A stretch of DNA of 34,877 bases from Candidatus Cloacimonadota bacterium (lineage in GTDB: Bacteria > Cloacimonadota > Cloacimonadia > Cloacimonadales > TCS61): positions 1 to 34,877 of the forward strand of contig JAIPGO010000038.1 in NCBI GenBank assembly GCA_021736135.1, written 5' to 3'. The translations under genes were made by a program, and so were the position numbers. Below the pieces are notes generated by a model. The model was not told the origin of the DNA, searched no databases, and worked only from the letters and a program-made list of their open reading frames with translations. Below are positions 8,180-34,423 of the stretch, piece by piece. Position 1 is the first letter of the stretch, and each line of letters begins with the position of its first letter.

Positions 8180-8247
8180 GAGCGTATAAAATTTGTTAAG
8201 CGCTTACGTGTAATATTCATGCAGTTTTGGGCAAAAGAATTCTTTTT

Positions 8248-8367
8248 AACCGCGAAAGCCGCTAAAGCACGCGAAATAATTCAAGTAAAGAAAGCAAATC
8301 CTATTCTTCTACTCATTGCATTTCTTACTTTCGCGTCTTTTCGCGTCTTTTCGCGCTTTTCGTGGTT
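8248..8367. repeat. Long hairpin with 10-bp-periodic arms
   Basis: The left arm (8248-8276) starts AACCGCGAAAGCCGCTAAAG. The right arm (8328-8367) consists of exact 10-bp steps TCGCGTCTTT, TCGCGTCTTT, TCGCGCTTTT, then CGTGGTT. The arms are imperfectly complementary across a ~50-bp AT-rich centre. An open frame crossing it on the plus strand (8159-8518) is an artefact of the repeat. Confidence 0.65.
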
Positions 8368-8383
8368 GAATGTCTTAAAAAAT

Positions 8384-8461
8384 CCAGTCACCAATCACAA
8401 ATCACCAGTCACGCTGAACGAAGTGATGTCTCAATTTCTCATTTTCTCAATCTCACAATTT
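8384..8461. repeat. Phased short repeats: four 7-bp units, an 18-bp core, four 8-bp units
   Basis: Units CCAGTCA, CCAATCA, CAAATCA, CCAGTCA (8384-8411) run into the core TCACGCTGAACGAAGTGA (8409-8426). Then follow CTCAATTT, CTCATTTT, CTCAATCT, CACAATTT (8430-8461). The reverse complement of the core recurs at 13464-13481, with a variant at 15188-15205. Confidence 0.65.
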
Positions 8462-9242
8462 CGGTTTAACCGAGTTGTCGAAGGCAGAAAAAGAAATTTT
8501 AGCAACGAACAATACTAACTAAACGAATTGAAGATAGCAATTTTAATAAAAAAGTGGTAGGCTATTCGGTTTACTAAAAAAGTTCGTTTTGTTGGTTTTG
8601 TTCGCGGCTAAGATAAATCTTCTTTTTTATCCGTGCTTCTGATAAATCCGCGGTTGATAAATCTTTTCCTGGTTACGGTTTAACCGAGTTGTCGATGGCA
8701 GAAAAAGAAATTATGAGCCGCGAACAATCGCTAACAAACGCGAACTAAAGAAATTAAAGATAATGATATTTGCTTAAAAAAAGTTCGCGCTTGTTCGCGT
8801 TTGTTCGCGGCTAAGATAAATCTTCTCTTTTATCCGTGCTATCCGCTAAATCCGCGGTTGATAAATCTTCTCCTGGTTACGGTTTAACCGAGTTGTCGAA
8901 GGCAGAAAAAGAAATTTTAGCAACGAACAATACAAACTAAACGAACTGAAGATAGCAATTTTAATAAAAAAGTGGTAAGCTATTCGGTTTACTAAAAAAG
9001 TTCGTTTTGTTGGTTTTGTTCGTTGCTAAGATAAATCTTCTCTTTTATCCGTGCTATCCGCTAAATCCGCGGTTGATAAATCTTCTCCTGGTTTCGGTTT
9101 AACCGAGTTGTCGATGGCAGAAAAAGAAATTTTAGCAACGAACAATACTAACTAAACGAACTGAAGATAGCAATTTTAATAAAAAAGTGGTAGGCTATTC
9201 GGTTTACTAAAAAAGTTCGTTTTGTTGGTTTTGTTCGTTGCT
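8462..9242. repeat. Tandem array, four copies of a ~215-bp unit with internal hairpin
   Basis: Units start at 8462, 8676, 8880 and 9095, each with CGGTTTAACCGAGTTGTCGA; spacings are 214, 204 and 215 bp, and the fourth copy is incomplete. Each contains an imperfect inverted repeat of 29-31 bp (arms 8501-8529/8581-8609, 8716-8746/8782-8812, 8919-8947/8999-9027, 9134-9162/9214-9242). Units 1-3 also carry a 9-bp-phased stretch ATCCGTGCT ATCCGCTAA ATCCGCGGTT or a variant of it. Unit 2 differs from 3 and 4 on both arms in matching fashion. No coding potential is visible. The array lies between the regulator gene's 3' end and the sigma-54 promoter region. Confidence 0.85.
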
Positions 9243-9299
9243 ATAATTAATCTTATCTTCGAGTTTCGAATCTCGAACGAAGTGAAGTTATTATGTCCT

Positions 9300-9327
9300 C
9301 TCACTTCTCACGTCTCACTATTCACTG
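9300..9327. repeat. Four phased 7-bp units
   Basis: CTCACTT, CTCACGT, CTCACTA, TTCACTG in exact 7-bp phase, just after the regulator stop on its strand. They are preceded by a similar run (CTTCGAG, TTTCGAA, TCTCGAA, CGAAGTG) at about 9258-9285. Same style as the other short-period arrays of this zone. Confidence 0.6.
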
Positions 9328-34174: not shown

Positions 34175-34423
34175 TTTAGAGGCTGTGCGAAAACTTTCTG
34201 TTTTGTGATCAATATAATAATTCCAGCTGAGAACAAGAGTTTTGAACGGTACTCCGGGCAAGACTTTTGGGCGACGAATACTCCCCAGGCATCTTTTATA
34301 TAATTACCTGATAATATGTTAGTCGCTCAAAAGTCTTGTCCTTAGTACAGTCCAAAACTCTTGGCTTAAATTGGATGTCGGCATCTTTAATGGACAATTA
34401 TTAATTCTCGCACAGCCTCTTTA
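34175..34423. mobile_element. MITE-like element with 12-bp terminal inverted repeats and TTTA target duplication
   Basis: Ends GAGGCTGTGCGA (34179-34190) and TCGCACAGCCTC (34408-34419) are perfect inverted repeats, flanked by TTTA on both sides (34175-34178 and 34420-34423). Inside, a second imperfect inverted repeat of ~45 bp pairs AAGAGTTTTGAACGGTACT (from 34236) and AAGACTTTTGGGCGAC with GTCGCTCAAAAGTCTT (from 34322) and AGTACAGTCCAAAACTCTT. The 241-bp element has no transposase and could fold as one long hairpin. It is probably a non-autonomous derivative of an IS with the same ends. Confidence 0.8.

Follow-up and report, generated by a model that had tools for sequence, protein, structure and literature searches.

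Inverted word arrays around GxxExxY genes and a tandem cluster of gene-less hairpins in Candidatus Cloacimonadota

In the REPIN/RAYT system, dispersed short intergenic palindromes occur as singlets, as hairpin doublets and as tandem clusters that include flanking sequence, and the gene for TnpA_REP, a HuH Y1 transposase, is linked to its cognate repeats and co-evolves with them (Bertels & Rainey 2011, PMC3116915; REPtron study, PMC8266576). The repeats described in this work show the same arrangements, the linkage to a gene and the co-evolution, and REPIN/RAYT is their nearest analogue in behaviour; however, membership fails on the enzyme, as the linked protein belongs to PF13366 (PD-(D/E)XK) instead of PF01797. 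Furthermore, and unlike REPINs, the arms are arrays of 8-11-bp words with a total length of about 30 bp, the words vary among the loci of one genome, the GxxExxY gene itself lies between the arms, and the loci are distributed over many phyla.

MITEs and insertion sequences constitute a second term of comparison, given that the same terminal inverted repeats occur in forms with and without the gene and that empty sites are found. On the other hand, the only gene between the ends is here of the PD-(D/E)XK type, the ends are word arrays which differ between copies, and single arms are common. Tandem arrays of short words in intergenic space, like those of the window, are also found in cyanobacteria as STRR heptamers, but we know of no case in which these heptamers form inverted arms around a gene.

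GxxExxY (PDDEXK_3) is a common small gene with no assigned function, present in many phyla, and a genome frequently holds several copies of it. Word repeats (CGCAAAGACGCAAAG, CACAGAGACACAGAG, ATCCGTG and others) are common in the intergenic space beside it. The window, that is, the whole stretch of 34,877 nucleotides that was analysed from a Candidatus Cloacimonadota genome, contains four hairpins that are gene-less copies of a dispersed repeat, the fuller relatives of which hold a GxxExxY gene between their arms. The best explanation, to which we assign a probability of roughly 0.7, is that of a gene-less cluster of dispersed repeats, moved or copied by a nuclease-like GxxExxY protein of the cognate word.

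The tandem array and its two hairpin subfamilies

The original prediction placed tandem repeats of about 215 bp at 8462-9242. This was confirmed (TRF period 215), and the span widens to 8459-9259, where four tandem units are found, each holding an inverted repeat with 23-28 Watson-Crick pairs over 29-31 nt. Each arm consists of a short word (GTTCGTTTT) repeated in tandem with a period of about 10, the two arms being in inverted orientation, and the linker carries a second word, TTATCCGTGCTATCCGCTAAATCCGCGGTT. The features are the following:

8459-8670, + strand: unit 1, type A hairpin with type B 3' end, plus linker
8501-8529, + strand: left arm of unit 1, GAAC words
8581-8609, - strand: right arm of unit 1, last bases of type B (GTTCGCGGCT)
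8671-8874, + strand: unit 2, type B hairpin, CGCGAAC words, plus linker
8716-8746, + strand: left arm of unit 2
8782-8812, - strand: right arm of unit 2
8832-8857, + strand: single ATCCG word array in the linker of unit 2
8875-9089, + strand: unit 3, type A hairpin plus linker
8919-8947, + strand: left arm of unit 3
8999-9027, - strand: right arm of unit 3
9047-9072, + strand: single ATCCG word array in the linker of unit 3, same as in unit 2
9090-9259, + strand: unit 4, type A hairpin with shortened linker
9134-9162, + strand: left arm of unit 4
9214-9242, - strand: right arm of unit 4
8245-8370, strand not assigned: separate gene-less hairpin with CGCGAAA words (AACCGCGAAAGCCGC... / ...TTTCGCGCTTTTCGTGGTT)

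In the linker of unit 1 the ATCCG array is degenerate. Recounting of the arms gave the pairing already proposed for units 2 (28/31) and 3 (26/29); Watson-Crick pairs number 23/29 (+2 G.T) in unit 1 and 26/29 (+1 G.T) in unit 4. Elsewhere in the window (34237-34360), and also in L253, L255 and L259, another dispersed long inverted repeat (CAAGAGTTTTGAACGGTACTCCGGGCAAGACTTTTGGGCGAC) is found, which is unrelated to the word hairpins.

Units 1, 3 and 4 represent one subfamily, type A, and unit 2 represents another, type B. As had been noticed, both arms show differences between units 2 and 3 at positions that pair (AGCCGCGAAC/GTTCGCGGCT vs AGCAACGAAC/GTTCGTTGCT), and the arms of unit 2 are longer by 2 nt, left and right alike. 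The linkers of these two units are nearly identical (40/43 positions on the 5' side and 64/64 on the 3' side), while their hairpins agree at only 76/109 positions, which indicates that unit 2 is a different hairpin set in the same frame. In comparison, the hairpins of units 1, 3 and 4 agree among themselves at 104-107 of 109 positions. The hybrid nature ascribed to unit 1 is also real: it combines a type A 5' arm with a type B 3' end, and the switch from A to B takes place at the shared TTTGTTCG, which would be most simply accounted for by recombination. The mosaic of the window would have arisen by recombination of two repeat subfamilies, the arms of which would then decay independently.

Perfect relatives of both types were found. 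The arms of type A pair at 29/29 positions in G026:C74. Type B is a dispersed subfamily with a single copy elsewhere in the genome of the window, C109 (L264:8417-8745), which shows perfect 31/31 arms and the loop of unit 2, this loop being broken by a nested inverted-repeat element of 166 bp. At the arm ends of units 1-4, G026:C74 and C109, neither the GTAG nor the CGTC tag of REPs and REPINs was found by inspection. The nested element occupies L264:8492-8657, with inverted ends AACCCATATTGTGCA / TGCACAAAATGGGTT; similar ends were found near several contig ends, so that it may be a multi-copy MITE-like element.

Pairing of the arms and the question of compensatory change

The agreement between arms had been interpreted as the outcome of selection for the fold or of arm-to-arm copying. 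The correlation itself holds as a rule throughout the genome and across phyla, and copying from one arm to the other is possible at the moment when an element or a new word arises, although none was seen at fixed sites. Compensatory selection for the fold, however, is not supported. It would imply that an RNA or DNA hairpin is maintained by compensatory mutations, as has been reported for the inner hairpin of REPINs (PMC3116915), and it would be in line with the differences on both arms of units 2 and 3, between which pairing is kept, and with the strength of the predicted folds (z-scores from -4.9 to -9.1 for units 1-4, with 0/200 shuffles equally good for every unit). Nevertheless, no Rfam family was matched in the window, and every mismatch of the four units is a departure from the perfect-armed relatives (29/29 in G026:C74 and 31/31 in C109), with 0 compensated pairs. 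The three mismatches of unit 2 are exactly its three single-arm departures from the C109 copy. Positions 13 and 20 of units 3 and 4 show a departure in one arm, and at position 16 both arms depart and the bases are still not Watson-Crick paired; the mismatches of unit 1 likewise fall at departures from the perfect 29/29 relative.

Related to this, orthologous elements located at one site in different species were compared by their changed pair columns. One-sided changes broke the pair in 57 columns and restored it in 19, and two-sided changes lost it in 12 and kept it in 4, these counts coming from 15 comparisons that share members and include some neighbouring sequence in the arm alignments, and which are therefore not independent. 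Orthologous flanks mostly score far higher left to left and right to right than left to right within one element, with scores that also take in sequence adjoining the arms. Besides, the situation that had been proposed as contrary to selection, many copies with unpaired arms, is the one observed, as single arms are numerous. Neither the orthologous-site counts nor the departures from perfect arms revealed covariation beyond that expected from common descent. Taking together the uncompensated mismatches, the one-sided changes, the likeness between corresponding flanks and the single arms, maintenance of the hairpin by compensatory mutations is considered very unlikely. The likeness of the arms goes back to the origin of each element, which begins as an exact inverted copy of a single word array and decays afterwards.

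Dispersed words and their association with GxxExxY genes

Copies of the arm and linker words are scattered over the 4.14-Mb genome of the window, where exact patterns counted 18 GAAC arrays and 49 ATCCG arrays, vs 0 for the reversed-pattern control. The words of the dispersed repeat measure 8-11 bp, and singlets, inverted hairpin doublets and tandem clusters were all found. A hairpin survey covering stretches that add up to 425 kb of this genome detected 57 hairpins vs 2 in a block-shuffled copy. Many of them display other words (CACAGAG, CACAGATT, CGCGAAA, TTAGTAG, CTCGAGA), and in each hairpin the arms agree. Other gene-less tandem arrays of hairpins exist as well, such as the one at C1:7080-7620, with 3 units of 208-223 bp.

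Two minor observations concern these words. Many contigs end near a repeat with an ATCCG array and GGTTCTGGCTTGTCCAGGTTAGG (L007-L010, L014, L015, L021, L022, L024 and L026), by which the assembly was probably broken. In L059, L060, L061 and L065 (and in the complementary strand of L046 and L063), the GAAC arm lies in frame within coding regions and encodes SNEQNQQNEQ, near the C-terminus of proteins with a ...NPFNP.TTISF.. domain.

Arms of the window's type enclose a whole GxxExxY gene in a relative. Between type A arms with 29/29 identity such a gene is found in G026:C74, and less perfect type A arms border one in G019, G023, G028, G031 and G032. Arms of type B lie around the GxxExxY gene of G004:C21; the proteins of G004:C21 and G026 are 64% identical. 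The genome of the window contains only one PF13366 gene, located inside a tandem array of ATCCG hairpins, and ATCCG is its word class. Of the two words counted in this genome, that of the resident protein is thus the commoner. No GxxExxY gene with GAAC words is present there, so that the GAAC hairpins, including the array of the window, may be relics.

The association was quantified by matching the upstream 100 bp of each gene to the reverse complement of the downstream 100 bp at usable loci (100-150 bp gave a sharper signal, which flanks of 350 bp diluted). At 88 loci of the same taxonomic family the median score reached 16. Mismatched partners had a median of 10 (p 6e-24), and so did 225 control genes (p 8e-18); in about a third of the loci of this set the match was weak or absent (score below 14). 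Named genomes from many phyla provided a further 72 usable loci, with a median of 18 vs 11 for mismatched partners (p 3e-13) and 9 for shifted positions (p 9e-23). These loci come from Bacteroidota, Acidobacteria, Cyanobacteria, Planctomycetes, Chloroflexi, Geobacter, Desulfobacteraceae, Ignavibacteria, Verrucomicrobia and others, and they cover one part of the family, the query having been a GxxExxY subgroup. Words vary between loci, whereas the arms of one locus agree. In L070, L071 and L075 the GxxExxY reading frames extend into the downstream word array, which results in C-termini such as NNYPDSLRPQRSQR.

That related GxxExxY genes share a word suggests a bacterial repeat system that has not been described. 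No paper on this association was found, nor were six of the word strings, in a literature search of incomplete coverage, which makes the novelty provisional; the works retrieved with TIGR04256/PF13366-type identifiers do not deal with repeats as far as their titles and abstracts indicate. In this study the family is known by fold and motif alone. The genes score far above the curated cut-offs of PF13366/TIGR04256 (PDDEXK_3), a family of PD-(D/E)XK fold, and the D and ExK of the D...ExK motif of this superfamily are invariant. No solved structure lies within sequence range. An AlphaFold2 model built from 60 sequences reached a pLDDT of 94, and its best Foldseek matches were Cas4 SSO0001, LHK-Exo and lambda exonuclease (E 2e-3, TM about 0.5), according to which the protein is likely a DNA nuclease.

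The genome of the window also contains nine PF01797 (Y1_Tnp) genes, one of which might have mobilised the array as a REPIN/BIME cluster of the RAYT kind. The singlets, hairpin doublets and tandem clusters with flanks would fit published REPINs (PMC3116915). However, six of the nine Y1_Tnp loci were examined and all six are surrounded by other, different arrays, whereas the words of the window surround PF13366 genes; Y1/RAYT transposases were consequently rejected as owners of the repeats, and this origin is regarded as extremely improbable. Tandem REP-like arrays, among them TCCCTACGGGATAA and CAGACGTCCCCGTCTG, border the Y1_Tnp (RAYT-like) genes of L031-L036.

Gene-bearing and gene-less elements were also compared at orthologous positions. 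At one intergenic site of one genus, G034 is empty, G023 and G032 carry a GAAC gene element, and G013 and G030 carry gene-less ATCCG hairpins. In another genus, at a site between genes that we take from their sequences to be purH and purC, G061 is empty. The gene element found there in G063 and G062 has CACAGAG words and that of G033 has CGCAAAG words, and in G022 a CGCAAAG hairpin without a gene occupies the site. Filled and empty sites differ by an element-sized gap (G023/G032 vs G034; G063/G033 vs G061). A target-site duplication was not recognisable at these two empty sites, which were compared between diverged species, so that loss is not separable from gain.

Word vocabularies, protein lineages and the proposed movement

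GxxExxY lineages have their own words, and the repeat sequence and the protein linked to it co-evolve. The more alike two proteins are, the more alike their words tend to be (Mantel r 0.37, p 0.001). Mapping of eight word classes, defined by the analyst on these same data, on the maximum-likelihood protein tree required 13 changes, where 500 shuffles averaged 37 and never fell below 31; this tree derives from a short protein and has many weak forks, and only two-flank word labels were used, as one-flank labels are noisy. When one locus was kept per genomic site, 12-13 changes were counted; shuffles averaged 23.5, with 18 as the lowest count. Single genomes hold several words, and only 9% of the gene pairs within one genome share a word. 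Seven proteins with GAAC words come from 7 genomes of 4 genera and form one clade (SH-aLRT 95).

It is proposed that the nuclease-like GxxExxY protein would recognise its cognate pair of words and would move or copy the element; the substrate would probably be folded or an inverted repeat, and it may be a single-stranded hairpin. Gene-less hairpins and single arms would then be non-autonomous copies served in trans, and tandem arrays could be formed when a hairpin plus its linker is amplified or unequally recombined; amplification together with flanking sequence has been reported for REPIN clusters (PMC3116915). We infer that GxxExxY moves the repeats. The link between gene and repeats, with the protein lineage predicting the DNA word, provides GxxExxY with a testable function and would explain where a large class of intergenic repeats comes from, and it would represent a second solution to the REP/RAYT way of life, reached with an unrelated enzyme.

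The gene could instead be a passenger of words spread by replication slippage, by another transposase or by recombination, or the arms could be operators that regulate it. The words far outnumber the GxxExxY genes, no target-site duplication was recognised, and another small gene family, PF05635, shows the same architecture with other words: an inverted flank match was also obtained for its genes (n=30, p 8e-10), which makes it possible that the mechanism is common to small genes and not specific to GxxExxY. Against this, the distribution of word classes over genera and sites agrees with the protein tree and not with the genome, and the two vocabularies are disjoint. PF05635 word classes gave 12 matches among 30 PF05635 loci vs 0 among 92 GxxExxY loci, and GxxExxY word classes gave 69 matches at GxxExxY loci vs 0 among the 30 PF05635 loci. 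Operators, moreover, leave the gene-less hairpins at the same sites, and the empty sites, unexplained. The passenger or operator explanation is for these reasons considered unlikely.

Mobilisation by the cognate GxxExxY nuclease can be extended to a wider hypothesis, for which the odds seem about even: GxxExxY proteins would be the nucleases behind a class of prokaryotic mobile repeats that is widespread and has not been described, in which each protein lineage recognises its own word, inverted word arrays bound the element, gene-less copies (hairpins, single arms and tandem arrays) are moved in trans and new words appear on both arms at once by arm-to-arm templating, and the four-helix PF05635 proteins may operate a similar system alongside, with words of their own. 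In L320-L349, 23S_rRNA_IVP/four-helix-bundle (PF05635) genes lie between inverted word arrays, and their words AATTGAT, GTGACTT, AATCCC, CAGCCGGT and AGTGCCTG were not seen at GxxExxY loci. PF05635-type words (CACCAATCACAAATCACCAGTCAC, TCTCATTTTCTC; CTCTCACTTCTCACGTCTCACTATTCAC) also occur in the window at 8388-8456 and 9296-9325, on both sides of the hairpin array.
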